A DNA stretch of 64,000 nt from Ianthella basta (Eukaryota > Porifera > Demospongiae > Verongiida > Ianthellidae): contig OZ025881.1 in assembly GCA_964019415.1 (NCBI GenBank), forward strand, positions 3,877,121-3,941,120. Direction: 5' to 3'. Every line of letters starts with the position of its first letter. Within the stretch, counting starts at the first letter, position 1. Position numbers and translations under genes: made by a program. The notes under the pieces are model-generated. The model saw only the letters and a program-made list of their open reading frames with translations. It was not told the DNA's origin and ran no database searches. Of the stretch, positions 1,302-34,066 are shown piece by piece.

Positions 1302-4300
1302 ATGGCTGCCATGACAAGCTCACAACAGGAGTACTTTCTCCTCCTAAATGATGTACCAATTGCAAACACTAACAATGTCTTGAGAAATTGGCTCAATAGT
1401 CTGAATGCTGGACATGTTGTGAAAGGGAAATTGCTGGTGAAGAATATCCAGCTGCGTGATGGCAGCTATGCTGTGTACAGCTTAGCCTCTGACAGAAACA
1501 TGAAGGTAACCTGCAGCAGCAAGGATGTAGCTCCACTCTGCGAAGATGAGTATGAATGGCTTGTTGCAATCGAAAAGCCTATTGATCGTCATCAAGTCTA
1601 CATTCAGAGAGACAAGTTTGATGCTGTTAAAAAGTTGCAAGTAGGCATTAAAGTGTTGGTCTCACTGCAAGTCCAGGCAGGAGCCACACTCGAGCTGCCA
1701 ATTTGCTCCAGTCGCCAGGCAACCGTACAATACATTGGTCCTGTCCAGGACAAGCCAGGAAGATGGATTGAAGTGGAACTGGAGGTAAAGCACAAAGCAC
1801 TCCTGTAAATGAGGGTATAGCAATTGCATTTGTCTCTAATATATTGCAGTACACATGGTGTTATTGCAGATCCATACTATCCCTTAGGGGCCTAGAGAGC
1901 AAACTATATATACTTGCTGTTCTGCAGTGTACATACATTTGTACTGCCTGCCTTTTGCTTAGTCTCGCACGCCAGCCCTTCCTGCCGGGGGGAGGGAAGG
2001 TCTGTTGGCCAAGTACACATATATTAATATGGCGCGTTGGAATGCAATTATTGCATCACACAATAGGAGAACTAGGAGCTGACGCGTGAGACTACCTTTT
2101 GCTAGCCATCTGTATGAGCTATTGCACCGCTTATCATGTCACACGCTGTGATTATTAAATTTGCTATATTAGTCAATTATTGGAAGTGATGTACTGATAT
2201 TGTTCCTTGTTAGGAGAAGCATGGAAGCTCTCATGAAACATTCAAAGAGTCCCGCTATTTCAAGTGCAAAAAGGGATTTGCTGCCCTTCTGCCTGCCAGC
2301 CACATCCTGTCAGTATTGCAATCCACCCACAAGAAGCTCCTGTTTTCACACGAAAAATCCATAACAGATCGGAGCTTTTATCTAGATGATCAAATTGTCG
2401 TTTTTGACAAAGATGGAAGACAAGTACCAGGAATAGTCAAATGGGCTGCAGAATTTCCTAAGAAGTCTGGGAATAGAGGCTACATCATTGGGATTGAAAC
2501 AGTAAGAAGTTGCCATGCCCTTAAGTCATTTAGTGCCTATATGCAGAAATATTTTTCATAAGTTGCTGTTTATATAATTATGTTACTTGCACTGTATATA
2601 GTTGTGGCTACAATAGATCATGCCTAGTCACACCTAGCGTATAAAGTTATCACATCATGTACAGGATATGATGTCCTGTGTCATAGCTAGCCTATAGATG
2701 TAGAGTGCTTACAGATTTGCTTACTTTCTGTAGAACAAGCCCATTAAGAAGGAGAAGGTTAGAGAGCATATTCATAAGATGGGCCACCATTTTCAGGAGC
2801 GTGACGAGAAGAAGCACACCTACCTTGCTGTACCAGAGCAGTCAGTGCTAAAAGAAGGAGATGGTACACCAGTTGATCTGCATCCTAAGTCTATGGATGC
2901 CAGTAAGCCTTCAGAAATGCCTACTTTGACTCCAGCTGTTGCCACTGGCAATGCTTTGGAGTCTGACTATTCCACCATGCAAGTTATTAACAAGCTGGAG
3001 GAAGCTGTTGAGGACACAGTGCTAAGAACATTTGGGATGAAACGTGACAGATTTGAAGTCCAACATGAGCAGTGCCAGAGACTGGACAGGCAGCAGCATG
3101 AACATTACCCAGGAACCACCAGTTCAGGGGTAAATAGTGCCAGTCAGCATCACTTTGACCATGATCAGTGTGGAGAAGAGATCCAGGAGTATCACAGATT
3201 GCCTCATCACAGAAGACGTACCTATTCCTTTGAGAGGCAGACCTCTGAGATGCAGCAGGCAGCTCAGGTTGTCCCTCCTTGCCCAAGCTCACACAGCTTA
3301 TAGAAGTAGGCACTGCAGTAGAGCTGGTAGACCCACCAGGATATGGTACCATTAGATGGATAGGGAAGTTCCCTGGTGTGAATCAAGATATTGCTGGTGT
3401 TGAAATGGTGAGCTGTGCAATTGTATTCCCGGACTTCAGTATCCCCAGTAGTGGGATTCATCCGCTAGTATACAAGTATGTGTAAGTGTTCAAAAACACG
3501 TGGTATTGGTAGCTGCATATCATTCAGCAATATTATTTGATGCCTTAATGTATAGAAGGTACTTACATACAAAGATATTGCACAGCTACAGTCTGTTATC
3601 CTTCCATATATAATACAGCTATGCTATATGTACAGCTAGCTGTTAGCAAACAACTTCACTCGCTATTAGTATACAGTGTAACTACACACAGTACATGTCA
3701 GCAGGTTCCTTGCAATATCACATTGCATGTGTTTCTGCTGCAGCAAACAAGTGTGGATAGACACAGCAATAGTTCCTGTAAGGGTGAGCCTTACTTCAAC
3801 TGTAAGGATGGACATGCAGTTTTCGTTGTTCTCAGCGGGCTGCTGCCAGACAAACGGCATAGAAAAGAACAGTCATCCGGCGACAGTAAGCCATGTAATT
3901 GTGCACTTAGTCACACTGCATGCATTGTTAAGGCCTTCAGGATTCGTTAAGTGTGGTTGTGGTTTATGTCACTAATAGCTGAGTGACACTTACTAGTTTA
4001 TTCATGGAGTCCCAGTGCAGTTTGTACATCAGTTCTCAGGGTATGTATTGGTTTTTGTGTTATTAGATTCTACTGTGGAAACTTCACACTCTTGTGATAG
4101 CAAGGACCAAGTGACAGAGATCAAGGCAAAGGTCCGTTGCCACAGTGAACAGAATGCAACAGTCCAGGGGCAGGCTGTACTTACCCACACGGATGCTGCC
4201 AATGAGAGGGATGTACAGCTCAGCAAACACAAGAGACAAATAAGGGGAGGTGTCAGTGGCAGCTGTGAAGAGGCTCTTGAGACAAACATTATCAGTTGTG

Positions 4301-5166
4301 AGGAGGAACTTCAGGCTAAGGACCAAAAGATTAAAGAGCTACAGCAAACAATCACTAGTCTCAGAGCAGATATAGAGCAACTTCAGAAGGAAAAGGAATA
4401 TACAACGAGACTCTGGACCATTCCTGAAGCTGAGCTTGAAGTGACCGCAACTGTACTGGGGAAGGGAGCATATGGGGAGGTGCGAGTGGGGGTCTACCAT
4501 GGTGACCGAGTGGCAGTGAAGAGGCTACACGATGTCATTGCAAGTGACTACTATCACAAGATGATCCAGAGGGAGATGGGGATTGCTGCTCACCTGAGAC
4601 ACCCCAAGCTTGTCCTCTTCATTGGTGCTGTCACCACGGGCAACCTCACCATAGTAACGGAGCTGATGGAGACCAGCCTTCGCTCTGAGCTGGAACATGG
4701 GCGCCTCAAGGAAGCCCACCTTCTCCCCATCAGTCAAGACATAGCCTGTGCCCTCTGCTACCTCCACTCCCTCTCTGAAACCATCATCCACCGTGACGTC
4801 AGCAGTGCCAATGTGTTACTCAACTCCAGACAGGGAGACTGGATTGCCAAACTGGGTGACTATGGCTCAGCCAACATCCTGGCCAAGGTACAGACGGAGG
4901 GCCCCGGCTGTCCTGTGTATGCTGCCCCTGAAGCAAGCAGGCCAGAGGAGCAGGGACCCAAGATGGACGTGTACAGCTATGGTGTGCTCCTACTGGAGAT
5001 GTGCTCCGGCACTCTCCCTTGTGACCTCCCAGCCATCCAGCAAGCAGTGCACACCTGGGGACAGCCGAAGCGTCAGCTGGGAGTGCTGGCCTGTCAGTGC
5101 ACTCACCAGAGCAGAGATAGGCGGCCTCACATGAGGGCAGTGGTCACACAGCTCGATGGAATGTGA
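1302..5166 (+). CDS. CYLD-like triple CAP-Gly / TKL kinase fusion protein
   Basis: Six exons (1302-1784, 2214-2501, 2734-3129, 3297-3407, 3744-3885, 4067-5166) join in phase to 839 codons plus stop. Residues 1-160 resemble the CYLD N-terminus; CAP-Gly 1 spans exons 1-2 (ATVQYIGPV, then RYFKCKKGF), a second CAP-Gly-like unit ends exon 2 (GYIIGIET), and the third spans exons 4-5 (YGTIRWIGKFPG, then YFNCKDGHAVFV), matching the NEMO-binding CAP-Gly of CYLD. Exon 6 starts with a coiled coil and continues into a kinase of about 240 residues: G-loop GKGAYGEV, VAVK lysine, HRDVSSANVLL catalytic loop, DYG in place of DFG, and AAPE. The HRD..N, DxG and lysine are present, so activity is plausible. The USP protease of CYLD is absent. 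The exon 3 donor is the least certain junction; a longer exon 3 reaching about 3290 is possible. Exon 5 to 6 phase agreement supports one protein, but two genes cannot be excluded without cDNA. Confidence 0.72.
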
Positions 5167-6454: not shown

Positions 6455-9400
6455 TCAGTGACAATTCCCACAGCGTGGCGTACACTTCTGTCTATTCACT
6501 CCACATTTGCACCCCCCACTGATGTCACCACGACCCTGCAGGGGTGAGGAGGGAGACATTAAACAGGGTACCAGGGTTGGTGTTAGAGTACCCAAACCCA
6601 AAAACCAGTCCCTATTCCCATTCCACTTGGAAGGGAAATAGGGCCTGCAAATGTTGGGGTTTCAAAGCCGTTGACTTCCACTGCATGATTTCATGTGGCA
6701 CCAATCAGATTGCAGAGTCGTTCGCATCACTTAAATATTGGCAGTACATGGCTATAACAATTGAGTCCTGCCAGGGATCAGCTTGCCTGTTGACGAGAGC
6801 TGCTTTATTGTGTGTGGGGAGGCTGCAGAAATAAAAAATGGATGTGTTCTTCACATTTGCTGGTCATAGAGACAGAATCATCGAATGGCTATCAGATCGG
6901 TCCGGGCTTACCACTAAAGAGGAAGATTTCCCTGTTTTGCCTGCAGGTGGGTGTGAGCAACTTTGGTAGGCCAACAAAGGCATCTTTCCCACTGAATAAG
7001 GCACACACACCTTTTTCTCTGTTACTACGTAAACCAAGTGGGCCGTCCGTGCCAATCTACAGCTGTACGCAATTGCCTTCCTAAGCCTCAACCGTGGCAC
7101 CTGCTTAGAAACAGTGTTGTGAAACTACTTCCAAATTGGTCATAGTCATGTGGATTGTGACAGAATAGAAGTCAACAGCTTCAACCCCCCCCCCCCCCTC
7201 CAATGTTGCCAGGCCCTACTTCCCAAGCATAAGTCAGAATGGAAACAGGGACAGGGTACAAGGCTAGTGTTAGAGCTGACATATTGCGTGGTCTAGGTTG
7301 ATTGATGCCTTGTGGTGCGTGTACTGTTGTGGTTCACATCCTTAACTTAGGCAACATGCTCGTATGCACGTCATCTTTGTATGGCTGTTTTTACACCATA
7401 AGTGATTGGGCATGAGCAGTTCTTAGTGGAGTGCATGTCTCATGCAAAAGCAAGATTAATTGCTTCCACTTACTTACAAGCTGTTCCTAACATGTCAGAT
7501 GCAACCTCAGCAAAAGTGTATTATATGTTTTCTAGGTTTCTCCCTGTGGAGTACTCTACCTACCAAAACATACTCAGTGCCCTCCGTATAGTCATACAAT
7601 GACAAAGTAAGTCCATTCCTGCAACTAATTCATGTCCAAACTATCATACTCTACTAGCACCACTTCTGTTTCTTTGTTTCCCTACTACACCTTTATGTCA
7701 GATTCAAAACAACAGTGCAGTTACCAAACATTTGATTGCGTGCTACAGCTATTATATGTATATTTCTGTATACTTAAACTTTCTTTCCATGGCACATACA
7801 GTAGATTAGTAGACCTGTTGTGGCTAAAGGGTTCAAAATAAGATTTCATGACTTGACCAACTGAGTCTATCCTACCTTTGGTCCCCAGCGTGGTCCCTTT
7901 GTGGCCCAGCAGAGCTCAGTCTTGCACACACTGCACTTGATCCAGTCACAGCCTTCCTTCTTCTGAACAATCACCCCACACTGGGAACATCGCATAGCAT
8001 CCCCCTTTGTCAACATTTGCTACAGATGCAAGAAGAAAAGACAAAGTGAGACAGAGAGTTAGCAATACAGGTAGGCAGGCCTCAAAAGTGAAGAAAACTT
8101 TAAAATTGACCAATATAAGTCCATGTGAAGCCTTTGATTGGTCTGCAGTTTGTTGAAGGAAGTCCGCATTGTGCCCTTTGTCAATCTACATAACACTTGC
8201 TCGGCCATTCCATAAAAAAACATAGGTATGTAATTTGTGCCAAGTATGGTATGTGTAGTCCAAGGCAAGCATTTGAATGCACACATTCACACCAAACATA
8301 CATCATGCAGTTAAACACTACTGAACCTGCAGTAACATTCACTGTACCACCCCACCAGAGCTCAGAACCATCCCTCCATTGTGTATACCAGGTCAAAGTA
8401 CGTACCTCCAGGAACTCCTTGGTGGCTCTGGCTGCCTCATCGTTGGCTGCCTTCCTGGCAAGGTCGTCCTGATACTCCTTACAGTTCATGCCCTCGTGGA
8501 TGGCCTTACATGTCAGGCAGTTGGTCTTATTGCAGATGGGGCAAGGGAAGTGGTTGACGTCATCCTCATACACGCACCATCCAGGGCAGTCTGTTGTCAC
8601 ACAGTGGAAGGAGTCGGCCATGACTGCCTCTGCCTTGGCTATTCCTCGGTGCTCAAACTTTTCAAATTCTTCCTCTGTCAGTACCTATACAGAAAGAAAG
8701 CAGAATGTTGGAGGGCGGATGCAGGGGAGGGAGTAACACACTGGAGTTTGGAGGTTGAATGGTAGGGAAATGGACAAGAGTGGAAGTGAAGGCACTGGAC
8801 TGAGAAGGGTATCAATGCACTGAACATCAAGTTGTCCAACAATGACATCCTGGACATGTGATATGCTGCATGTGGTTGCTTACTCCTCTGATCTCCCTCT
8901 CAGTGATTATACTGCCACAGGGGTAGTCAGCAAATGGACACGTGACCTCAGCATCCTCACTGTTCACAATGGATCCTCTGAGGCAGTCCCTTCATACAAC
9001 CAAAATGGAAGAGCCACTATAACACATGGTCATACTGTACCAGGAGTGGTTGGAACAACATAGTGACCAGTGCACAATACAGATGTTTTCTATGGGGTGC
9101 CATTTGTAAAAATATTCAATGAAAAGTGCATCTATCATAGATCACTGGATGTATGCAGAGATCACTGGATGTATGCAGAGATCACTGGATGTATGCAGAG
9201 ATCACTGGATGTATGCATAGATCACTGGATGTATGCAGAGATCACTGGATGTATGCATAGATCACTGGATGTATGCAGAGATCACTGGATGTATGCATAG
9301 ATCACTGGATGTATGCAGAGATCACTTGATGTATAACTTGTGATCCATGTCAGTACTAGAATTTACCAAATATACTGTACTGTAAGTACGCATAATAAAT

Positions 9401-10250
9401 CAGTATAAAATTGTGCAAGCGCTCCTTAGTACTGGTACCAGTGTGGACAAGCAACTGAAAATAGTCTGTACCCACCAGCCCTACAGTGCAGGGGAGCATG
9501 ACCAATCATTCATGCCAGTGCCATACTGTACATGTACAGTTACTTCAAAGTTGTGTAGCATGCACTGTGGAAAGTGCCACTGCATACATGTTCCAATACA
9601 TACATAGCTTACGTACTTGCAGAACATGTGGAGACACTCCCTCAACATCACACCTTCTCCAGGCTCAATATCTTCGAGGCACACCGAGCACTCAAAAGCC
9701 TCTATGTTCTCAATGATGTCTTTAAAGTCTGTAGCTTGGAGTGCCTGGAAGTTCTTCACTCTCTCCTCCTCACGACGCCTTCTTTCCTCCTCAATATTCT
9801 ACATGCACACATGCGCAGGGAAACACTCACATGCTAAGGTACACTGATGCACCATGTGCAATCTCAAATAATACTCATTACAAGAATGTGAAAATAAAAG
9901 CAAAACCTCTAAATGTACAACACTCAGTTTGCCACAGTCAATTTTAGTGGTGTGGTGTCTGTGTAATCAGTCCACGGCATGACGGAAGAGAGAGGTCACT
10001 GCAGGGTGGACACAAGGCAGAAACCTCTAGTCACCAAGTGCACCTACCCTATACAGTACCTCCTCTAGCAGTGGGAGCTAGTGTTGGGTGAAGTCATATG
10101 CTCTAGGACTAGTTATTCACATTACACCAAACACCCGCAATGGAACTAACTAGCAAGCAACCATGAGGTCTGTGGCAGTGGCAAGTGCATCAAAAGAGGA
10201 ACCTGCTCCCATGCACCCAACCACACCCCACACCCACACTCACACACTTA

Positions 10251-10313
<63 letters not shown>

Positions 10314-10320
10314 CCACCTA

Positions 10321-10385
<65 letters not shown>

Positions 10386-13300
10386 CACATATATCACACT
10401 GCACCACCCACCCGTCTCATGGATTCCTCATCCTGGTCCAACTTCCTCATCAGCTCCTTTTCTGAGTCATCAAACTGGTAGTCCAGAGGTGGCTGGTAGT
10501 CCGCAGGCCGAGCAGCTGAGCATATCTCACAGCCAGGGCGAGCAGGCTTGTTGACGAAAGTGCAAGTGGGGCATGCCCAGCCAACTGGGCCTGCTTCAGG
10601 TGATGCCACTGGTACATCAATTCCAAATATGATTGGACGGGAGCCACTGTCAGACTTCTCGCTACCAGGTTCAGGGCCTGTACAAGTGGTACAACCAGCA
10701 TTGTGAGTGACAAGTATGTCAGGTAACACAGTCACATACGAGGTGAGGGTGACATGGTCCGTTTTACCTGGCGGTGCTGCACGCCGAGGCTTTGCAACTG
10801 GCAGGGGTGACTGTGCAGCATGCACTTTAGACGGTGCTGGTGGTGGCAGGTCACGGAACATGTCCACAGCACCATGTGGGGTCTGAGGAGTTGAAGGGTA
10901 AAGGATGGCACACACAGTGATACATCTAAACACACAGAACAGCAAGTGTACCATCATACAACTGCTTTTACGTACATGCTGTCTTGCATATCTTCACACA
11001 CACACACACACTTTTGTAGTCCCAAAATATTAACAGCAATTTGGATGGAGATGCTCTCTGAAGCTTAGCATATGGACACTAACACAATACTCCGACATGT
11101 TCTACCCACCCTAGCAGGGCCTTCCTTCTCCTTCTCCACACGGTGGTCATCCTGTTCCTGCTGCTGGTGCTCCATCTTGTCCCGGTACGAGTCATAGTTG
11201 ATGCGGTCCAGGTTGCCCTTACGAGCCTTTACTACATACATGAACACTTCAGCATCGGGCGCTCCCCCAACAAGGTTATCCACAAGGTCCTCATCTCGAG
11301 CAAGGCGCTTGCCAATGATCCACTTCTGGACTTCTCGTGGGAGAAGGTTGCTATGTTCCACCTACCAGTAGAGGTGAGACATACTAAACTGCACGCTAGT
11401 GATTAATGAAGCCTCTAACACTAAGAACTAATTCAGACTGCTGTGTAGCAGCTGGTGCATGTCTTCAACCCTCCACAGGGTGTGGCACCTGCAATGCAGC
11501 ACAGCTGGCTCACGGTGGGGGCTGAGATGCCGCTGCTGTAGCAGATCACGTTTGTTTGCACACCTCTACTAACCTCTAATTTGAGGTCTTTAACTTTCCA
11601 CTTGCGGCTGGCGTGGACAATAATGATCGCAGGCGGGCTAGTGCTCTGCTGGCTCTCAACTGTCACTTGCAGCCTAGAGGAGGGAGGAATCAAGTCACCT
11701 GTAGCCAATATTGCTTACATTAGCCATGTTGCCTTACAATAACATCTAAGATATGCACATACACATCTCTTCACTGCTGGAGACACTCCTGTTGTGGACG
11801 GCGATTGAAAGAGCAGCTGCAGTTTAAGAATCCCCTGTGCATCTTAGTTTTAAGGTCATCTTTGAATGCACTGCAGTCAGCCTTCAGCTTCTTCAAACAA
11901 ACTGCGTGCGACAACCCAAGCAGTCGGTATTCTCCCGCAAGGCTGCTTCCAGCTGGCTCAGTATTAACCTATCAAGGTACTGTATGTTTGGGTACCACTC
12001 TTCTCCCGCAGACCATACTTGTCTCTTGCTGTGCATGTTTAAGTGCACATCAAAACACTCGCTGCTACCTAATCTAGTATCTGCACATCGTGCGTGAAGT
12101 TCCGATTAATCATATCCATCAGCAAACTTTTTTAGACCTTGTTTGCCTTTCCTGGATAAGCACCTGGAGGAGTGGGTCTAGCACGCTAGACTAATTTACA
12201 CCCAGTACACACAACCCAAAATTGGCTACAGCATACTCCGGCTCACTCTCACCTAATGCAGTCCTCAGAGCTGTCACAAGGCAACTCCTTCTTCTTCTCC
12301 TGGCAGGTTCCACTTAGTGCTACTTGACCCACATGCTTTGGGTACTGCATCAGCCGGTCCACCATCTGATATGCCCTTGTTCCATTGTTAGCATTGACGG
12401 CTATAGTCAGCTCAGACAGCCATAAATCTGCAAATACGTATGACAGAACAATGCATTCAAAGTACCATTCCATGATCTAGATGATAATACCAGGCTTTTA
12501 CACACATGCACACACTCCATGCTAATATTCTATATCGCCAGTATACACATATGCATACACACTTGCTAAGAAAACCATCTGCCATACACACATAATTCAT
12601 TCGACTTGCTCCGACTTCCGCATTCGACTACATATTTCGTACATACACATACAAACACGCACGCACGCACACATGCACACATTTATACTACTACCATTAA
12701 CACTGCCTCTACCATGATGTAGACATACCATGTATAATGCATTTCCTTACTCAAGTCTCCAGCTGACATGCTGCCTTGGATGGCCTTTTCAGCTTCAGAT
12801 ACTCCACGATTAAACTGCCGTGAGCTTTGGCCAGTAGCATCTGCAACAAAAACACAATACATCAGTAATCTGGTTTGCTATACCCTACTTCCTGCTCGTC
12901 ACTAGCATGGGGTAAATGAGAAAGTACCCCCAGGTGTGGGCAGGTAGTAGGGATTGCAATCCAGACTAGCCTGGCTGTGAACAATGGGATTGACTAGAGG
13001 CTAGGTCACAAATAGCCTGAAAAAAGTGGAGATGGCTAACAACTGAATCATTTGACGAGCAAGTACTCGTAATAGTTATCACTGATGGCTACGACCACAC
13101 CCTCCCAATTGAAATCGCACAGAAATTGCTACTGTAGCCTACCAAATGAAAAAGGTCCTACATGCTGCCTGGCTCGCTAGACCACCTCAACTATGCACCC
13201 AGGGACCTTTCTTTAGGCAGTGTAAAGTTGGACAGGGTAGCAGGCCACACTGCCATACAACCAATCTCACTAATTCAACACACCCACTTACATGCGTCTT

Positions 13301-16300
13301 GTGGTGGTGATGCAGCATGTTGGCGTGGTGCTGGCTGCTCAGGATAGCCTGCAGATCGAGTAGGAGGCTGCTCCTGGTGGTAGTCTACATACTGCATTGC
13401 AGGCTCCTGTCTGGGGTAGTTGGCAAAGGCATTAGGCAGCGGCCTCTGTCTGTGTGGAGATGGCAGGGAGTCACCCTGAGTGTGAGGGGATGGCAGGTTG
13501 CCTTCACCATGCCTGTAGGGACCTGGCAGGTTTTCTCCACTGGACCATTCACTCCTCAGTTGAGGTGCGGGCCTATAGCCCACATCCTGCCCACTGCCAT
13601 AGACACTGCCAGCCGTCTCATGACTAAGCCTACATAGGAGACACAGAAGGGAGACAGGGGGCTACATGCAGTACATGGGGCTACATGCAGTACATGGGGC
13701 TACATGCAGTACATGGAGCTACATGCAGTACACGGGGCTACATGCAGTACACGGGGCTACATGCAGTACACGGGGCTACATGCAGTACACGGGGCTACAT
13801 GCAGTACACGGGGCTACATGCAGTACATGGGGCTACATGCAGTACATGGGGCTACATGCAGTACATGGAGCTACATGCAGTACACGGGGCTACATGCAGT
13901 ACACGGGGCTACATGCAGTACACAGGGCTACATGCAGTACATGGGGCTACATGCAGTACATGGAGCTACATGCAGTACACGGGGCTACATGCAGTACACG
14001 GGGCTACATGCAGTACACGGGGCTACATGCAGTACACGGGGCTACATGCAGTACACGGGGCTACATGCAGTACACGGGGCTACATGCAGTACATGGAGCT
14101 ACATGCAGTACATGGAGCTACATGCAGTACACGGGGCTACATGCAGTACACGGGGCTACATGCAGTACACGGGGCTACATGCAGTACACGGGGCTACATG
14201 CAGTACATGGGGCTACATGCAGTACATGGGGCTACATGCAGTACACGGGGCTACATGCAGTACACGGGGCTACATGCAGTACACGGGGCTACATGCAGTA
14301 CATGGGGCTACATGCAGTACACGGGGCTACATGCAGTACACGGGGCTACATGCAGTACACGGGGCTACATGCAGTACACGGGGCTACATGCAGTACACGG
14401 GGCTACATGCAGTACACGGGGCTACATGCAGTACACGGGGCTACATGCAGTACATGGGGCTACATGCAGTACATGGGGCTACATGCAGTACATGGGGCTA
14501 CATGCAGTACATGGGGCTACATGCAGTACATGGGGCTACATGCAGTACATGGGGCTACATGCAGTACATGGGGCTACATGCAGTACACGGGGCTACATGC
14601 AGTACATGGGGCTACATGCAGTACACGGGGCTACATGCAGTACACGGGGCTACATGCAGTACATGGGGCTACATGCAGTACACGGGGCTACATGCAGTAC
14701 ATGGGGCTACATGCAGTACATGGAGCTACATGCAGTACACGGGGCTACATGCAGTACATGGGGCTACATGCAGTACATGGGGCTACATGCAGTACACGGG
14801 GCTACATGCAGTACATGGGGCTACATGCAGTACACGGGGCTACATGCAGTACATGGGGCTACATGCAGTACACGGGGCTACATGCAGTACACGGGGCTAC
14901 ATGCAGTACACGGGGCTACATGCAGTACACGGGGCTACATGCAGTACACGGGGCTACATGCAGTACATGGGGCTACATGCAGTACACGGGGCTACATGCA
15001 GTACACGGGGCTACATGCAGTACATGGGGCTACATGCAGTACACGGGGCTACATGCAGTACACGGGGCTACATGCAGTACACGGGGCTACATGCAGTACA
15101 CGGGGCTACATGCAGTACATGGGGCTACATGCAGTACATGGGGCTACATGCAGTACACGGGGCTACATGCAGTACATGGGGCTACATGCAGTACACGGGG
15201 CTACATGCAGTACATGGGGCTACATGCAGTACAGGGGGCTACATGCAGTACATGGGGCTACATGCAGTACATGGGGCTACATGCAGTACATGGGGCTACA
15301 TGCAGTACATGGGGCTACATGCAGTACATGGGGCTACATGCAGTACATGGGGCTACATGCAGTACATGGGGCTACATGCAGTACACGGGGCTACATGCAG
15401 TACACGGGGCTACATGCAGTACACGGGGCTACATGCAGTACACGGGGCTACATGCAGTACACGGGGCTACATGCAGTACACGGGGCTACATGCAGTACAC
15501 GGGGCTACATGCAGTACACGGGGCTAGATGCAGTACATGGGGCTACATGCAGTACACGGGGCTACATGCAGTACACGGGGCTACATGCAGTACATGGGGC
15601 TACATGCAGTACACGGGGCTACATGCAGTACATGGGGCTACATGCAGTACATGGGGCTACATGCAGTACATGGGGCTACATGCAGTACACGGGGCTACAT
15701 GCAGTACATGGGGCTACATGCAGTACACGGGGCTACATGCAGTACATGGGGCTACATGCAGTACATGGGGCTACATGCAGTACATGGGGCTACATGCAGT
15801 ACACGGGGCTACATGCAGTACATGGGGCTACATGCAGCACCAAACACAACTTGTGTAAGGCACAATCTTTAACCTGCTATGCCTACGTAGTTGGGCCTTA
15901 GTGTATGTCGAGCGTTGCTGCCATGTCCCACTTCAACTTATAACCTTGCTGATCTGACACTCTGCACTTGGTGGTGGTTGTACAGCAGATTTCACCCAAG
16001 AGCACATTTGTCGTACAAGCAGTAATGGTCTCGTTGCACTGAGTAAGGTCAGCTACTACACAGACATGTACATGGCTCCTCCACTAAGGTGCTCACAACA
16101 GACAATCTGTAGACTCAATTGTGCGCACAAACCTTGGTCTGCCGTGCATCTGTGCCTCGTATCCACCGTCAAAAGGCTGGCTACCAGGCATTGCAGTAAC
16201 ACCTGGAGAAGAGATAAACACACATGGCGAGTGTGCCATACACCAGGTACGTACATGAAATGCTGAGGGCTACTTGGGCCATGCAATGCACACTCTGCTA

Positions 16301-18967: not shown

Positions 18968-19048
18968 ACTATTGCGCAACGGCAAGGAGTAGGTATAGCG
19001 AGCTAGGCAGACTACCGGTCAGATCCTGTTGAAACACGTCTCACGAGT

Positions 19049-19054
19049 CACGTG
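19049..19054 (+). promoter_or_regulatory. CACGTG E-box near ALDH copy A
   Basis: A CACGTG palindrome lies 40 bp upstream of the first ATG of copy A. The other two ALDH copies also have CACGTG close to their 5' ends (25631-25636 and 33980-33985) although the flanks of copy A are otherwise unlike theirs. CACGTG is the binding site of bHLH-Zip factors; use here is inference. Confidence 0.4.
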
Positions 19055-19093
19055 CCTCTACGCTGCACACAGTTTACTCAATCACTTCAAGTT

Positions 19094-20620
19094 ATGTCTG
19101 AAGAACCAGCTGCAAAGCGGTGCAAGATGTCGGAGGAGCTGTTCAACGCCGAGGGAGAGCCTAAGGTCCTCTACAAGCAGATCTTCATCAACAACGAGTG
19201 GGTGGACTCAGCCAGCGGCAAAACCTTCCCCACAGTCAACCCCTGCACTGGAGAGAAGATCTGCGATGTTGCAGAGGGCGACAAGGCAGACGTGGACAAG
19301 GCCGTCAAGGCTGCTCGGGAGGCGTTCAAGCTCGGAGGCACGTGGAGGACCATGGATGCATCGAAGCGAGGTCTTCTCCTGTACAAGCTAGCAGACCTGA
19401 TCGAACGCGATCGCGAGTATCTGGCCAAACTGGAGACACTGGACAACGGCAAGCCGTACAGCGATTCCTACTACACGGATCTGAACCTTGTGATCAAGTG
19501 CTATCGCTACTATGCTGGCTGGGCAGACAAGATCCACGGTAAAACCATTCCAACTGATGGCTCCGTCCTGACCTTCACTCGTCTCGAACCAGTCGGCGTC
19601 GTGGGTCAGATCATCCCCTGGAACTTCCCCCTCCTGATGCAGGCGTGGAAGCTGGCGCCTGCCCTCTGTGCCGGCAACACCGTGGTCCTGAAGGTTGCCG
19701 AGCAGACCCCCTTGACTGCCCTCTACGTAGCAGCTCTGTCTGCGGAGGCCGGGTTCCCTGCTGGTGTGCTCAACGTGGTGCCCGGCTACGGTCCGACAGC
19801 AGGCGCAGCCATCTCTTCCCACCCAGACGTGGACAAGGTGGCCTTCACTGGATCGACTGAGGTCGGCCACCTCATCCAGCAGGCTGCAGGAGCCAGCAAC
19901 CTGAAGCGGGTGACCCTGGAGCTGGGTGGCAAGAGTCCCAACATCGTCCTGGCCGATGCTGACCTGGAGTACGCCGTGGAGAAGAGTCACTTTGCCCTGT
20001 TCTTCAACCAGGGCCAGTGCTGCTGTGCTGGATCCCGCTGCTTCGTGGAGGAGTCCATCTACGACGAGTTTGTCCGTTTGAGTGTGGAGCGGGCCAAGAA
20101 GCGCACAGTGGGTAATCCCCTTGACCCCGCATGTGAGCAGGGTCCTCAGGTTGATCGCGAACAGTTTGACAAGGTCCTGAGTCTCATCGACAGTGGGAAG
20201 AAGGAGGGAGCCAAGCTGGAGTGTGGCGGATCTCGTCACGGAGACAAGGGTTTCTTTGTGCAGCCAACGGTCTTCAGTGATGTCCAGGACCACATGAGGA
20301 TTGCCCAGGAGGAGATCTTCGGACCCGTGATGCAGATTCTGAAGTTCAAGACCCTGGATGAAGTGATTGAGCGTGCTAACAAGACCAACTACGGTCTGGC
20401 AGCCTCCATCTTCACCACCAACCTGGAGAATGCTCTCATGCTAGCCCAGGGCATCCGCGCCGGCACAGTGTGGATCAACTGCTATGATATACTGGAGGCC
20501 CAGGCACCATTCGGCGGATTCAAGGAATCTGGCAGCGGTCGTGAGCTGGGAGAGTATGGCCTGCAGCAGTATTCGGAGGTGAAGACCGTGACCATCAAGA
20601 TGCCTCAGAAGAACTCTTAG
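19094..20620 (+). CDS. Aldehyde dehydrogenase, ALDH1/2 class, copy A (intronless)
   Basis: A single 508-codon frame, with a second in-frame ATG at 19127 giving the 497-residue protein shared with copy B. It oxidises aldehydes to acids with NAD+. Visible motifs: cofactor-binding IIPWNFP and [19 protein letters not shown], catalytic-base [10 protein letters not shown], nucleophile region [11 protein letters not shown], and the C-terminal PQKNS ending typical of ALDH1/ALDH2. No mitochondrial presequence is apparent, so a cytosolic enzyme is likely. No introns interrupt it, in contrast to the neighbouring genes. An AATAAA polyadenylation signal is at 20768-20773. Homology to copies B and C begins at the inner ATG, so copy A has its own promoter, divergent from the RBCK1 homologue. 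Whether it prefers retinal or acetaldehyde cannot be read from the sequence. Confidence 0.95.
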
Positions 20621-21965: not shown

Positions 21966-22567
21966 GGAGTTAATTTGAACTTCGCAAGTGTTGACAGTGA
22001 AGTGTACAATGTTTGTGCTGGTGTACGCTGTAAAACAGTGTTGGATTCAGACCACCATTGGTTTTTCTCAGGGACTAAAAGTGTTACAGTCGTTGTTTGA
22101 AACCACTGCTTGTCCCTGAGAACCACCACTGGTGGCCATGGCCTAAAACCACCACTGTTTTTACAGTGTAGAGCCAAACAGAGAGGGCCCGAAAGTGGGT
22201 ACACTGGTTTGCAGGCAGCTATGTAGTGAAGAGCAATGGTAAGCAATAACATGTACTAGTAGCTGAGCTGGGTGGCTTTGCATAGCTACATAAGTGATGA
22301 ATCCAAAGAATATATGGGTCCTGCAGCTAGCTGTTACATCGAAACATGTAATGGATTGCATTGAAGAGCAGGAGGGCCTAGATTCTAGAGCACAGCAAAG
22401 TAGATTGAGTAGCAAGCAATTTGCAAGATAACCTAATAACTAGTGTACAGAGCACATGCAGCAAAGCAGAAAGATGGGAAAATAGTAAAGCTGCACCTGT
22501 GGGTGTAAAGGGAAAGCTGAAGGGCTGGAATGGGCATGCAGTAGTAGGAGGCGCAGCAAAATGTTGG

Positions 22568-23483
22568 CAGGTGTAGGGATGGTGAAAACGTATTCAAAAT
22601 TAACGCATGTTAATGACTTGGGTTTTACATGGACCAGCCCTCCTTCTTGTTGCATGGACCAGCTGGTCCCTCTCTTTGCATGGACTGGCCCTCCTCCTTG
22701 TTGCATGGACCGGCTGGTCCCTCTCTTTGCATGGACTGGCCCTCCTCCTTGTTGCATGGACCAGCTGGTCCCTCTCTTTGCATGGACTGGCCCTCCTCCT
22801 TGTTGCATGGACCAGCTGGTCCCTCTCTTTGCATGGACTGGCCCTCCTCCTTGTTGCATGGACCGGCTGGTCCCTCTCTTTGCATGGACTGGCCCTCCTC
22901 CTTGTTGCATGGACCGGCTGGTCCCTCTCTTTGCATGGACTGGCCCTCCTCCTTGTTGCATGGACCAGCTGGTCCCTCTCTTTGCATGGACTGGCCCTCC
23001 TCCTTGTTGCATGGACCGGCTGGTCCCTCTCTTTGCATGGACTGGCCCTCCTCCTTGTTGCATGGACCAGCTGATCCCTCTCTTTGCATGGACCGGCCCT
23101 CCTCCTTGTTGCGTGGACCGTCTGGCCCCCCTCTTTGCATGGACTGGCCCTCCTTCTTGTTGCATGGACCAGCTGGTCCCTCTCTTTGCATGAACTGGCC
23201 CTCCTCCTTGTTGCATGGACCAGCTGATCCCTCTCTTTGCATGGACCGGCCCTCCTTCTTGTTGCGTGGACCGGCTGGCCCCCCTCTTTGCATGGACCGG
23301 CCCTCCTCCTTGTTGCATGGACCAGCTGGTCCCCCTCTTTGCATGGACCGGCCCTCCTCCTTGTTGCGTGGACAGGCTGGTCTCCCTCTTTGCATAGACC
23401 GGCCCTCCTCCTTGTTCCTACGTTTTTTCCACCAGGTGGTTTGCCATACCTTGCAGGTACACACTGCACCATCCCTACGTCTG
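22568..23483 (-). mobile_element. Inverted-repeat element with 51-bp core repeat, copy E2 (about 15-16 units)
   Basis: Same element in reverse orientation. The end repeats (22568-22584 and 23467-23483) each differ by one base from the E1 version. The core, about 22626-23420, is an array of a 51-bp unit (17 codons, so all frames stay open). Each unit contains ggaccagctggtcc-like palindromes alternating with caacaaggaggagggcc. Confidence 0.85.
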
Positions 23484-23622
23484 CCCTTGTTTTTGGAGGA
23501 AACATTTTTACACACCCTTTACATTAATAATGATTGCCACTTCAAGAGGTAATACATGCCAATAGACAAATGTAATACCCTGAGCCATGCAATTTTATGG
23601 CCTTGTGCACTGTGGTCGGCAG

Positions 23623-24039
23623 CTTGTCTGGCTTAGTTGAAGACTATCCCATCTGGGCTACTGGCAAGGAAAATATGGTTTCCTCTTTATTCTTCCCCTT
23701 GCACATGCTTGTCGTCATGTATCAGTAACTGGGTAGCCTTTAGCTATAGTCTGCTGGCTACCATTATAGCTGTAAAGGCTAGCTACAGCTAGGTACACTT
23801 TACATATGTACAGCAAGGGAGCTGTTAAGGCCTCTATAGCCAGGTATGTAGCACCCCATCACAGTCCTCTTGGGATTATTATCCAATTAGTGTATTACAC
23901 CCTTTATTACACAACACATGTCAGCAGCTGACCTGATCATTCATTGCAGTACATGTACAAAAGTAGACTACATGTAAGCACTCTACAAAGAAGATCTATC
24001 CTCAGTGGCAATCCACGTATAAAGTGTTTCCACTATAGT
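23623..24039 (-). repeat. Segmental duplication flank of ALDH copy B
   Basis: From gcttgtctggcttagtt to the ALDH stop codon this stretch matches 32006-32446 next to copy C almost base for base. The minus-strand polyadenylation hexamer AATAAA is at 23908-23903. The duplication breakpoint is at or near 23623. Confidence 0.85.
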
Positions 24040-25533
24040 CTAAGAGTTCTTCTGAGGCATCTTGATGGTCACGGTCTTCACCTCCGAATACTGCTGCAGG
24101 CCGTACTCTCCCAGCTCACGACCGCTGCCAGATTCCTTGAATCCGCCGAATGGTGCCTGGGCCTCCAGTATATCATAGCAGTTGATCCACACTGTGCCGG
24201 CACGGATGCCCTGGGCTAGCATGAGAGCATTCTCCAGGTTGGTGGTGAAGATGGAGGCTGCCAGACCGTAGTTGGTCTTGTTAGCACGCTCAATCACTTC
24301 ATCCAGGGTCTTGAATTTCAGAATCTGCATCACGGGTCCGAAGATCTCCTCCTGGGCGATCCTCATGTGATCCTGGACGTCACTGAAGACCGTTGGCTGC
24401 ACAAAGAAACCCTTGTCTCCGTGACGAGATCCGCCACACTCCAGCTTGGCTCCCTCCTTCTTTCCACTGTCGATGAGACTCAGGACCTTGTCAAACTGTT
24501 CGCGATCAACCTGAGGACCCTGCTCACATGCGGGGTCAAGGGGATTACCCACTGTGCGCTTCTTGGCCCGCTCCACACTCAAACGGACAAACTCGTCGTA
24601 GATGGACTCCTCCACGAAGCAGCGGGATCCAGCACAGCAGCACTGGCCCTGGTTGAAGAACAGGGCAAAGTGACTCTTCTCCACGGCGTACTCCAGGTCA
24701 GCATCGGCCAGGACGATGTTGGGACTCTTGCCACCCAGCTCCAGGGTCACCCGCTTCAGGTTGCTGGCTCCTGCAGCCTGCTGGATGAGGTGGCCGACCT
24801 CAGTCGATCCAGTGAAGGCCACCTTGTCCACGTCTGGGTGGGAAGAGATGGCTGCGCCTGCTGTTGGACCGTAGCCGGGCACCACGTTGAGCACACCAGC
24901 AGGGAACCCGGCCTCCGCAGACAGAGCTGCTACGTAGAGGGCAGTCAAGGGGGTCTGCTCGGCAACCTTCAGGACCACGGTGTTGCCGGCACAGAGGGCA
25001 GGCGCCAGCTTCCACGCCTGCATCAGGAGGGGGAAGTTCCAGGGGATGATCTGACCCACGACGCCGACTGGTTCGAGACGAGTGAAGGTCAGGACGGAGC
25101 CATCAGTTGGAATGGTTTTACCGTGGATCTTGTCTGCCCAGCCAGCATAGTAGCGATAGCACTTGATCACAAGGTTCAGATCCGTGTAGTAGGAATCGCT
25201 GTACGGCTTGCCGTTGTCCAGTGTCTCCAGTTTGGCCAGATACTCGCGATCGCGTTCGATCAGGTCTGCTAGCTTGTACAGAAGAAGACCTCGCTTCGAT
25301 GCATCCATGGTCCTCCACGTGCCTCCGAGCTTGAACGCCTCCCGAGCAGCCTTGACGGCCTTGTCCACGTCTGCCTTGTCGCCCTCTGCAACATCGCAGA
25401 TCTTCTCTCCAGTGCAGGGGTTGACTGTGGGGAAGGTTTTGCCGCTGGCTGAGTCCACCCACTCGTTGTTGATGAAGATCTGCTTGTAGAGGACCTTAGG
25501 CTCTCCCTCGGCGTTGAACAGCTCCTTCGACAT
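24040..25533 (-). CDS. Aldehyde dehydrogenase, ALDH1/2 class, copy B (intronless)
   Basis: An uninterrupted 497-residue frame, nearly identical to copy A from the shared ATG onward (MSKEL instead of MSEEL at the start). All landmarks are kept: [16 protein letters not shown] for the general base, [11 protein letters not shown] for the nucleophile, PQKNS at the end. Function as for copy A: NAD-dependent aldehyde oxidation, probably cytosolic. The 5' flank is unlike copy A but like copy C, with a CACGTG site at 25631-25636 and a run of (caat)n near 25674. The intact frame and the near-absence of amino-acid change argue that it is functional or very recently copied. Confidence 0.93.
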
Positions 25534-25630
25534 CTTGCTAGGGCCGATTGCCAAGTGTTGTGTGCGATGGGTGGGGTAGCCGTAGTGGGGTGATATTGGT
25601 GAGGCGAACGCACCCAGATTTGGAAGCTAT

Positions 25631-25636
25631 CACGTG
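25631..25636 (-). promoter_or_regulatory. CACGTG E-box near ALDH copy B
   Basis: CACGTG about 100 bp upstream of the copy B start codon, in a context (atcacgtgat) that makes a 10-bp palindrome. See the equivalent site at copy C. Confidence 0.4.
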
Positions 25637-25694
25637 ATCAATTAGACTATCTTTCTGCATAAAATTATATCAATCAATCAATCAATCAATGATA

Positions 25695-26785
25695 GTTTCC
25701 TCCAAAAACAAGGGGATGGTGCAGCGTGTACCTGCAAGGTATGGCAAAACCACCGTAGGAACAAGGAGGAGGGCCAGTCCATGCAAAGAGGGGGGCCAGA
25801 CGGTCCATGCAACAAGGAGGAGGGCCGGTCCATGCAAAGAGGGGGACCAGCTGGTCCATGCAACAAGGAGGAGGGCCGGTCCATGCAAAGAGGGGGGCCA
25901 GCCGGTCCATGCAACAAGGAGGAGGGCCGTCCATGCAAAGAGGGGGACCAGCTGGTCCATGCAACAAGGAGGAGGGCCGGTCCATGCAAAGAGGGGGACC
26001 AGACAGTCCATGCAGCAAGGAGGAGGGCCGGTCCATGCAAAGAGGGGGACCAGACGGTCCATGCAACAAGGAGGAGGGCCAGTCCATGCAAAGAGGGGGA
26101 CCAGACGGTCCACGCAACAAGGAGGAGGGCCAGTCCATGCAAAGAGGCTGGACCAGCTGGTCCATGCAAGAAGGAGGAGGGCCAGCCCATGCAAAGAGGG
26201 GGGGCAGACGGTCCATGCAACAAGGAGGAGGGCCGGTCCATGCAAAGAGGGGGGCCAGACGGTCCATGCAACAAGGAGGAGGGCCGGTCGAGGGGGGCCA
26301 GCCGGTCCATGCAACAAGAAGGAGGGCCAGTCCATGCAAAGAGGGGGGCCAGACGGACCATGCAGCAAGGAGGAGAGCCAGTCCATGCAAAGAGGGGGGC
26401 CAGCAGGTCCATGCAACAAGGAGGAGGGCCGTCCATGCAAAGAGGGGGGCCAGACGGTCCACGCAACAAGGAGGAGGGCCGGTCCTTGCAAAGAGGTGGG
26501 CCAGTCGGTCCATGCAGCAAGGAGGAAGGCCTGTCCATGCAAAGAGTGGGGCCAGACGGTCCATGCAACAAGGAGGAGGGCTGGTCCATGCAAAGAGAGG
26601 GACCAGCTGGTCCATGGAACAAGGAGGAAGGCCAGTCCATGCAAAGAGGGGGGCCAGCCAGTTCATGCAGCAAGGAGGAGGGCCAGTCCATGCAAAGAGG
26701 GGGGCCAGCCGGTCCATGCAACAAGGAGGAGGGCCAGTCCATGCAAAACCCAGGTCATTAACATGCGCTGACTTTGAATATGTGT
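25695..26785 (+). mobile_element. Inverted-repeat element with 51-bp core repeat, copy E3 (about 19-20 units, truncated ends)
   Basis: Shares the outer sequence tttcctccaaaaacaagg with E1 and E4 but has lost most of the left inverted repeat, and the right end breaks off after tttgaatatg, before the right inverted repeat. The core, about 25760-26750, is the longest 51-bp array in the window and the most varied, with several units shortened or altered. Confidence 0.8.
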
Positions 26786-26954
26786 AGTATTCCAAACAAC
26801 ACTGGTGCATACAGTCACAAACTGTGGCAGCCGTACCCAGGTGGTCCAGCTGATACATGGCATGGGTACGATTGCTTAATGTGCCTCAAGAAGGCCGCGA
26901 TAAATGGGGGTAATCTAATTGTAGCACCAATCAGCACCAATTGGCGGGAAGCAA

Positions 26955-32446: not shown

Positions 32447-33937
32447 CTAAGAGTTCTTCTGAGGCATCTTGATGGTCACGGTCTTCACCTCCGAATACTG
32501 CTGCAGGCCGTACTCTCCCAGCTCACGACCACTGCCAGATTCCTTGAATCCGCCGAATGGTGCCTGGGCCTCCAGTACATAGCAGTTGATCCACACTGTG
32601 CCGGCGCGGATGCCCTGGGCTAGCATGAGAGCATTCTCCAGGTTGGTGGTGAAGATGGAGGCTGCCAGACCGTAGTTGGTCTTGTTAGCACGCTCAATCA
32701 CTTCATCCAGGGTCTTGAATTTCAGAATCTGCATCACGGGTCCGAAGATCTCCTCCTGGGCGATCCTCATGTGGTCCTGGACGTCACTGAAGACCGTTGG
32801 CTGCACAAAGAAACCCTTGTCTCCGTAACGAGATCCGCCACACTCCAGCTTGGCTCCCTCCTTCTTTCCACTGTCGATGAGACTCAGGACCTTGTCAAAC
32901 TGTTCGCGATCAACCTGAGGACCCTGCTCACATGCGGGGTCAAGGGGATTACCCACTGTGCGCTTCTTGGCCCGCTCCACACTCAAACGGACAAACTCGT
33001 CGTAGATGGACTCCTCCACGAAGCAGCGGGATCCAGCACAGCAGCACTGGCCCTGGTTGAAGAACAGGGCAAAGTGACTCTTCTCCACGGCGTACTCCAG
33101 GTCAGCATCGGCCAGGACGATGTTGGGACTCTTGCCTCCCAGCTCCAGGGTCACCCGCTTCAGGTTGCTGGCTCCTGCAGCCTGCTGGATGAGGTGGCCG
33201 ACCTCAGTCGATCCAGTGAAGGCCACCTTGTCCACGTCTGGGTGGGAAGAGATGGCTGCGCCTGCTGTCGGACCGTAGCCGGGCACCACGTTGAGCACAC
33301 CAGGAGGGAACCCGGCCTCCGCAGACAGAGCTGCTACGTAGAGGGCAGTCAAGGGGGTCTGCTCGGCAACCTTCAGGACCACGGTGTTGCCGGCACAGAG
33401 GGCAGGCGCCAGCTTCCATGCCTGCATCAGGAGGGGGAAGTTCCAGGGGATGATCTGACCCACGACGCCGACTGGTTCGAGACGAGTGAAGGTCAGGACG
33501 GAGCCATCAGTTGGAATGGTTTTACCGTGGATCTTGTCTGCCCAGCCAGCATAGTAGCGATAGCACTTGATCGCAAGGTTCAGATCTATGTTGTAGGAAT
33601 CGCTGTACGGCTTGCCGTTGTCCAGCGTCTCCAGTTTGGCCAGATACTCGCGATTGCGTTCGATCAGGTCTGCTAGCTTGTACAGGAGCAGACCTCGCTT
33701 CGATGCATCCATGATCCTCCACGTGCCTCCGAGCTTGAACGCCTCCCGAGCAGCCTTGACGGCCTTGTCCACGTCTGCCTTGTCGCCCTCTGCAACATCG
33801 CAGATCTTCTCTCCAGTGCAAGGGTTGATTGTGGGGAAGGTTTTGCCGCTGGCTGAGTCCAGCCACTCGTTGTTGATGAAGATCTGCTTGTAGATGACCT
33901 TAGGCTCTCCCTCGGCGTTGAACAGCTCCTTCGACAT
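32447..33937 (-). CDS. Aldehyde dehydrogenase, ALDH1/2 class, copy C (intronless)
   Basis: An uninterrupted frame of 496 residues from the shared ATG; an in-frame ATG at 34009 would add 24 residues. It is the most diverged copy: one codon is missing near the C-terminus (NCYVLEA against NCYDILEA), and there are several substitutions such as [24 protein letters not shown] and GFPPG. The catalytic landmarks [11 protein letters not shown] and LELGGKSP are intact. Its polyadenylation hexamer is altered. It may be functional, or an early-stage duplicate under relaxed constraint. Role as for copies A and B. Confidence 0.92.
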
Positions 33938-33979
33938 CTTGCTAGCGCTGATTGCCAAGTGTTGTGTGCGATAGGCTAC

Positions 33980-33985
33980 CACGTG
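33980..33985 (-). promoter_or_regulatory. CACGTG E-box near ALDH copy C
   Basis: CACGTG 43 bp upstream of the shared start codon, in a 5' flank otherwise similar to copy B apart from a small deletion. Confidence 0.4.
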
Positions 33986-34066
33986 AGCTATTATACTATC
34001 TTTCTGCATAAATTATGTCAATCAATCAATCAATTAATGATATATAGTTTCCTCCAAAAACAAGGG

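Follow-up and report, generated by a model that had tools for sequence, protein, structure and literature searches.

Near the start of a 64,000-nucleotide stretch of the genome of the sponge Ianthella basta (the window; contig OZ025881.1, hereafter C14, positions 3877121-3941120) lies a gene, gene A, whose exons lead from a CYLD-like N-terminal half to a protein kinase. Work on CYLD treats it as a deubiquitinase and assigns to its N-terminal half the choice of where it acts. We describe gene A, five paralogues of the same order (B to F) and two sister genes (U1 and U2) that carry the USP domain of CYLD. The genome searched comprised 209 Mb, and all genome-wide counts given below are lower bounds.

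Results

Exons and domains of gene A

Gene A, on the plus strand, can be read with GT-AG introns as six exons (1302/1311-1784, 2214-2501, 2734-3129, 3297-3407, 3744-3885 and 4067-5166) with intron phases of 0, 0, 0, 0 and 1. Exon 1 (1311-1784) encodes the CYLD N-terminal region and the first part of a CAP-Gly unit (CAP-Gly1), and exon 2 (2214-2501), as modelled, encodes the remainder of that unit and the beginning of a middle unit. The region 2734-3407, which corresponds to exon 3 of the paralogues, encodes a linker and the first half of a CYLD-like third unit (CAP-Gly3). The second half, placed by the exon model and by PDB matches, lies at 3744-3885 and ends in a phase-1 donor. The last exon (exon 6, 4067-5166, with its stop codon at 5164-5166) begins at a phase-1 acceptor and contains a coiled coil within 4067-4419, according to the exon model, and a complete TKL-type kinase at 4420-5163, recognized by Pfam and PDB matches. 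A first-pass annotation of this DNA had placed the start codon at 1302; that ATG is extra, as the paralogue starts align with the Met at 1311 and gene B has ATA at the corresponding position. No in-frame Met lies ahead of the VAVK lysine of the kinase in exon 6 of gene A; thus, this exon alone cannot start a complete kinase from an ATG, and needs the upstream exons.

Pfam recognized CAP-Gly in two stretches of the gene A model (E 3.4e-27) and Pkinase at residues 602-796 (E 9.1e-36). Among the 36 PDB sequences that matched its CAP-Gly units, only the CYLD CAP-Gly3 chains 1ixd (E 4.5e-13), 7owd and 7owc matched residues 386-472, while the remaining 33 matched residues 120-198 with E values of 2.2e-6 or worse. 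The third CAP-Gly of gene A is therefore CYLD-specific as judged from its sequence, and the CYLD likeness assigned to it earlier is borne out. A CAP-Gly profile search without CYLD affinity had been named beforehand as the outcome that would speak against the annotation; in the search itself, CAP-Gly3 matched 1ixd. The other units were searched against the PDB with a profile made from six of the eight genes (all except A and E). The best matches of CAP-Gly1 were RIKEN cDNA 1700024K14 and dynactin-1 (E about 3e-11), and CYLD CAP-Gly1 reached just E 0.07, so that this unit is, by sequence, a generic CAP-Gly and not a CYLD-specific one. The middle unit, tested alone with the sequence from gene B, had no Pfam match, and in the PDB profile search just two unrelated chains overlapped it (E 0.78 and 0.81). 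Of the three CAP-Gly units originally proposed, two are thus recognized by a Pfam profile and the middle one is not.

The claim of a complete kinase domain in the last exon (Lys, Glu, HRD-N, DxG and APE) was sustained by both Pfam and a motif check. The best PDB match of the domain was CTR1 (E 1.6e-26), and the best 60 of the 75 PDB sequences matched at E <= 1e-20 were CTR1, RAF1 and BRAF, which places the kinase in the TKL type. The Gly loop, VAVK, HRD..N, DYG and APE were kept in all ten kinase copies examined, out of 11 listed. A strictly written C-terminal pattern containing an Arg failed in B, in the copies G1 and G2, and in a copy at 1.63 Mb on C14.

A tandem family on C14

With the CYLD-like CAP-Gly3 as a query, 19 matches were obtained genome-wide, all on C14. 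Exon 1 was found in nine intact copies and one fragment, all at C14:3.46-3.88 Mb; six of the intact copies (A to F) lead to a kinase, two (U1 and U2) lead to a USP domain, and for one (3708258) no C-terminal exon was found. In each of genes A to F, the CYLD N-terminal half is followed by a phase-1 intron and a single exon that carries the coiled coil and the complete TKL-type kinase. Clean models were obtained for gene B (C14:3826839-3833355, 902 amino acids), gene C (C14:3848049-3859163, 944 amino acids), gene D (C14:3798495-3808559, 931 amino acids), gene E (C14:3770674-3783488, 945 amino acids) and gene F (C14:3728531-3752143, 759 amino acids), all with GT-AG introns of phases 0, 0, 0 and 1 and with zero internal stops.

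The kinase domain itself had 11 full-length matches (83-100% identity), of which eight lie at C14:3.75-3.88 Mb, one at C14:1.63 Mb and two on another contig (C6:7516338 and C6:7549361). Five kinase fragments also lie inside the C14 cluster, and the next kinases in the genome are at most 43% identical. The copies at 3820142 and 3869910 come after an exon-3-like stretch, and no adjacent CAP-Gly3 exon was found for either. The copy at 1.63 Mb follows CAP-Gly3-like exons (69% and 44% identity), and exons 1-3 were not found in the stretch examined there. A death-domain exon upstream of a C6 kinase was considered, and there was no evidence of its membership in the same gene.

Several further observations were made on these copies. 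The exon series at C14:3708258-3718560 and at C14:3728531-3738833 (the start of gene F) have identical spacing and scores and lie 20,273 bp apart; of the pair, just 3728531 was found to lead to a CAP-Gly3 second half and a kinase. The two may reflect a recent duplication or a doubling in the assembly. Behind each of the kinase copies at C14:3819270-3820891 and C14:3869038-3870659 lie remnants of a further copy. In the genome-wide search, one kinase query returned 661 candidate exons, and the 150 of them that were scored all fell below E 1e-15.

USP-bearing sisters

U1 and U2 are located on the minus strand of C14 (3.46-3.48 and 3.55-3.57 Mb) and share their N-terminal exons with genes A to F. 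The Cys-box exon of U2 matches 2vhf, the structure of the CYLD USP domain (E 4.5e-10), and that of U1 is 74% identical to it; the His-box exon of U1 matches 2vhf (E 1e-4), and that of U2 lies at 3553093-3553392. Genome-wide, the Cys-box and His-box queries each found two USP exons of CYLD type, all of them on the strand opposite to gene A and about 310 kb or more away from it. The CYLD USP exons were missing from the results of a profile search with PF00443, whose match at C14:3.97 Mb (L054) appears by eye to be another USP gene.

The intron behind CAP-Gly3 has a phase-1 donor and a phase-1 acceptor in U1 and U2 as well as in A to F. The kinase exon therefore occupies the place of the first USP exon. 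USP exons hidden in the window were also considered and rejected, as tblastn with the USP exons of U1 and U2 gave no match in the window, nor in the last introns of A to F. Gene A is thus derived from CYLD without being a CYLD deubiquitinase. The central proposal of the first-pass annotation, a CYLD N-terminal half in which a kinase takes the position of the USP domain, is therefore supported for the family: the order recurs in six genes, and CYLD USP exons are present in two sisters whose N-terminal exons are the same.

Selection and homogenization

Among the ten pairs of genes A to E, the ratio of non-synonymous to synonymous substitution rates (dN/dS) was 0.13-0.43 for the kinase and 0.45-0.85 for exons 1-3. 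The C-D kinase pair, for example, had 13.8 synonymous versus 6.2 non-synonymous differences. The kinase is under purifying selection. The synonymous divergence varies along the genes: between A and C, dS reaches 1.17 in the coiled coil and 0.68 in exons 1-3, against just 0.095 in the kinase, which shares its exon with the coiled coil. Between A and B, dS is 0.071 in exons 1-3 and 0.15 in the kinase, so that A is nearer to B in the N-terminal exons. Nearly alike kinases beside diverged N-terminal halves show that the kinase module has been homogenized among the copies, through gene conversion or unequal exchange.

Reading frame of gene A

The paralogues B to F, as well as U1 and U2, have a single exon without interruption at the place of exons 3 and 4 of the six-exon model. 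In gene A, the first frame of 2734-3407 is open only to 3300, and the CAP-Gly3 part lies in another frame. Relative to gene B, gene A is 4 nucleotides shorter (net) directly before 3304, and the exon-3 frame runs into a TAG at 3301-3303. Just two further A-B differences occur in the 167 nucleotides preceding this loss, which argues that the 4-nucleotide change is recent. The only in-frame rescue found is a possible 167-nucleotide intron (3130-3296, GTAAAT...ACACAG) whose sequence is exonic in the paralogues. Its acceptor scored -4.0, below all 21 of the 21 family acceptors (4.0-17.5), and its donor scored 1.9, below 20 of the 21 family donors (0.3-12.5), on a matrix built from 21 of the 26 family introns, a number of sites so small that it favors its own members. 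A 29-nucleotide intron or a plain read-through at this point is ruled out by the continuous exon of the paralogues and the 4-nucleotide difference. The six-exon structure annotated earlier is thus right insofar as a phase-consistent GT-AG reading exists, and wrong insofar as its exons 3 and 4 are one exon in the paralogues.

The core of CAP-Gly1 also carries a Glu in gene A where the other seven genes have a Gly. From this comparison, the reading frame of gene A is probably broken, and its product is probably a truncated protein with the CYLD N-terminal part only, unless the weak new intron is spliced, the allele is rare or the assembly is in error. The fusion proposed for the window therefore stands in its anatomy and family membership, and an intact reading frame for it is improbable. 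Any claim to novelty must rest on genes B to F.

Ubiquitin contacts of CAP-Gly3

Passages of one report on human CYLD (PMC8511506) name Leu475, Val487, Arg488, Glu507 and Phe545 as ubiquitin contacts of CAP-Gly3; the residue printed there as Arg488 is 489 by our count. They also place ubiquitin on one face of CAP-Gly3 and NEMO on another, assign microtubule binding to CAP-Gly1 and 2, and describe the recruitment of CYLD, together with SPATA2, by LUBAC (PMC8511506). In all eight genes, Leu475 and Val487 are replaced (the latter by Ile in U1) and the contact Arg is retained. Glu507 is retained in four of the eight (C, D, E and U2), and Phe545 only in U1 and U2, being absent from all six kinase genes. 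Gene A retains one of the five contacts, the Arg. With most contacts replaced, the kinase versions are unlikely to bind ubiquitin in the manner of human CYLD.

Other features of the window

Convergent with gene A, a minus-strand gene at 8184-10993 has an RBR exon at 8184-8684, found by search (E 3.1e-33 to RBCK1 chains), and a zinc-finger-like exon at 10397-10993, recognized by eye. Following the PDB title, we take it to resemble HOIL-1L/RBCK1. LUBAC and CYLD share their target chains in human, which makes the linkage curious; such a neighbor fits a pathway shared with the CYLD-kinase gene, and does not show it. Three closely similar long open reading frames, presumably related to aldehyde dehydrogenase, lie at 19007-20617 (plus strand), 24043-25626 (minus strand) and 32450-34012 (minus strand), and each contains a similar open antisense frame of 350 amino acids. 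Long tandem repeats with several frames open at once occupy 13624-15898 and 22443-26885, with units that include QQGGGPVHAKRGTSRSM.

Discussion

The reading we favor, and consider reasonably probable from comparison of the sequences, is that tandem duplication of a CYLD gene took place on C14 and that, in several copies, a single exon for a coiled coil and a TKL kinase took over from the USP exons at the shared phase-1 intron. The outcome would be a chimeric family, A to F, beside the deubiquitinase genes U1 and U2, with a kinase homogenized among the copies and targeted by the CYLD scaffold. If each gene is transcribed as one mRNA and its kinase is catalytically active, then the scaffold would carry the kinase to complexes attended by the neighboring CYLD deubiquitinase, where the coiled coil may pair the chains and allow the kinases to activate each other. 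One of the partners there would then be phosphorylated instead of deubiquitinated; possible candidates are CYLD itself and components of the IKK/LUBAC type.

In addition to the frame break in gene A, several observations weigh against this reading. No CAP-Gly match was found near either kinase copy on C6, and no family N-terminal exons were found in the 8 kb upstream of C6:7516338; thus, the kinase also exists outside the fusion. Genes B to F have Met codons within the coiled coil, so that these genes could give rise to kinase transcripts of their own. The residues compared also cast doubt on recruitment to ubiquitin, the contacts being largely absent in U1 and U2 too. The trees conflict as well: with exons 1-3, U1 and U2 group with E (93/93, below the firm-support mark of the tool), while with CAP-Gly3, U1 and U2 form a pair (92/91) and C, D and E fall together (83/91); the pair of A and B recurs in all three trees. 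The conflict implies more than one spread of the kinase or, failing that, conversion of the N-terminal halves as well. An AlphaFold model of the kinase exon (eight-row alignment) had a mean predicted local distance difference test score (pLDDT) of 40 and was discarded as uninformative.

Other explanations can be weighed against the same evidence. The C6 kinases without a CAP-Gly match nearby, and the Met codons that precede the kinase in B to F, would suit two genes read as one, that is, a truncated CYLD N-terminal gene followed by a separate kinase gene. We regard this as very improbable, as the same order is repeated in six genes with a phase-1 donor facing a phase-1 acceptor, the intron of 181 nucleotides in A and B offers scant space for a terminator and a promoter, and gene A lacks a Met before the kinase lysine. 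Still harder to credit is a set of genes that end either in the kinase exon or, by alternative splicing, in USP exons. The intron phase and the cluster are indeed common to the USP genes, but the few CYLD-type USP exons found in the genome lie on the other strand, far from gene A, and none was found in the window.

A third alternative accepts the fusion protein and takes it to act chiefly as a decoy in competition for the partners of CYLD, with displacement of the deubiquitinase, and not phosphorylation, as its main effect. The N-terminal half common to U1 and U2 would permit this, but purifying selection on the kinase and the preservation of the checked catalytic motifs make it unlikely. The last alternative concerns gene A only and is compatible with the favored reading: gene A may be a decaying copy that yields at most a truncated CYLD N-terminal protein and no kinase fusion, with functional fusions confined to the paralogues. 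The TAG, the recent 4-nucleotide deficit, the rescue splice sites outscored by nearly all family sites and the Glu in the CAP-Gly1 core all point that way. On the other hand, the region downstream still looks constrained (kinase dN/dS of 0.24 versus B, motifs present), one in-frame GT-AG solution exists, and the 4-nucleotide site may be an assembly error or a rare allele; on balance, we put the chances of decay at about even.

A broader reading of the tandem replacement can be offered only tentatively, and we hold it somewhat less probable than its converse. This lineage may have turned most of its CYLD genes (six of the nine N-terminal copies found) into scaffold-targeted kinases through a one-exon swap at a fixed phase-1 intron, while keeping two deubiquitinase sisters in the same array, with a HOIL-1L-like gene adjoining and the kinase module homogenized. 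If true, a single scaffold of the ubiquitin pathway would have been switched from eraser to writer and would operate as a multigene system. A natural family that keeps the CYLD N-terminal half and exchanges the enzyme would in itself be a ready-made experiment that separates targeting from cutting, and A to F would show which CYLD contacts matter without the USP domain; the pattern of Phe545, absent from six kinase genes and kept in both USP genes, is a testable clue. The family also illustrates clearly how an exon can be replaced at one intron and the new module then homogenized.

Comparison with known systems

Among the matches listed from the open-access literature, no title or beginning of an abstract described a CYLD-kinase fusion, which is weak evidence of absence. 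In the sponge Amphimedon queenslandica, a putative CYLD (AqCYLD) is depicted with CAP-Gly and deubiquitinating domains in Fig 1 of one study (PMC5796713), and a passage of another names CYLD as a paracaspase substrate (PMC5978004). The present genes resemble the CYLD deubiquitinase in that their CAP-Gly3 is CYLD-specific by sequence and that the CYLD USP domain is present in sisters whose N-terminal exons are the same. They differ from it in that the USP domain with its Cys/His/Asp triad is replaced in A to F by a coiled coil and a kinase, and in that the Phe545 equivalent is absent from the six kinase genes and present in the two USP genes. The kinases on C6 are 83% identical to that of the family, and in C6:7516338 the kinase is likewise preceded by a coiled-coil stretch, part of which is 43% identical; in contrast to A to F, no CAP-Gly match was found near either. 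RAF/CTR1-type TKL kinases (3ppz, 3p86 and 3omv) are the best structure matches of the A to F kinase domain. By comparison with what we take to be the usual HRDLK..N, the kinase of A to F has HRDVSSAN, and it presumably has neither a RAF- nor a CTR1-type regulatory region. In A to F, a kinase of this type is instead fused to CAP-Gly units.

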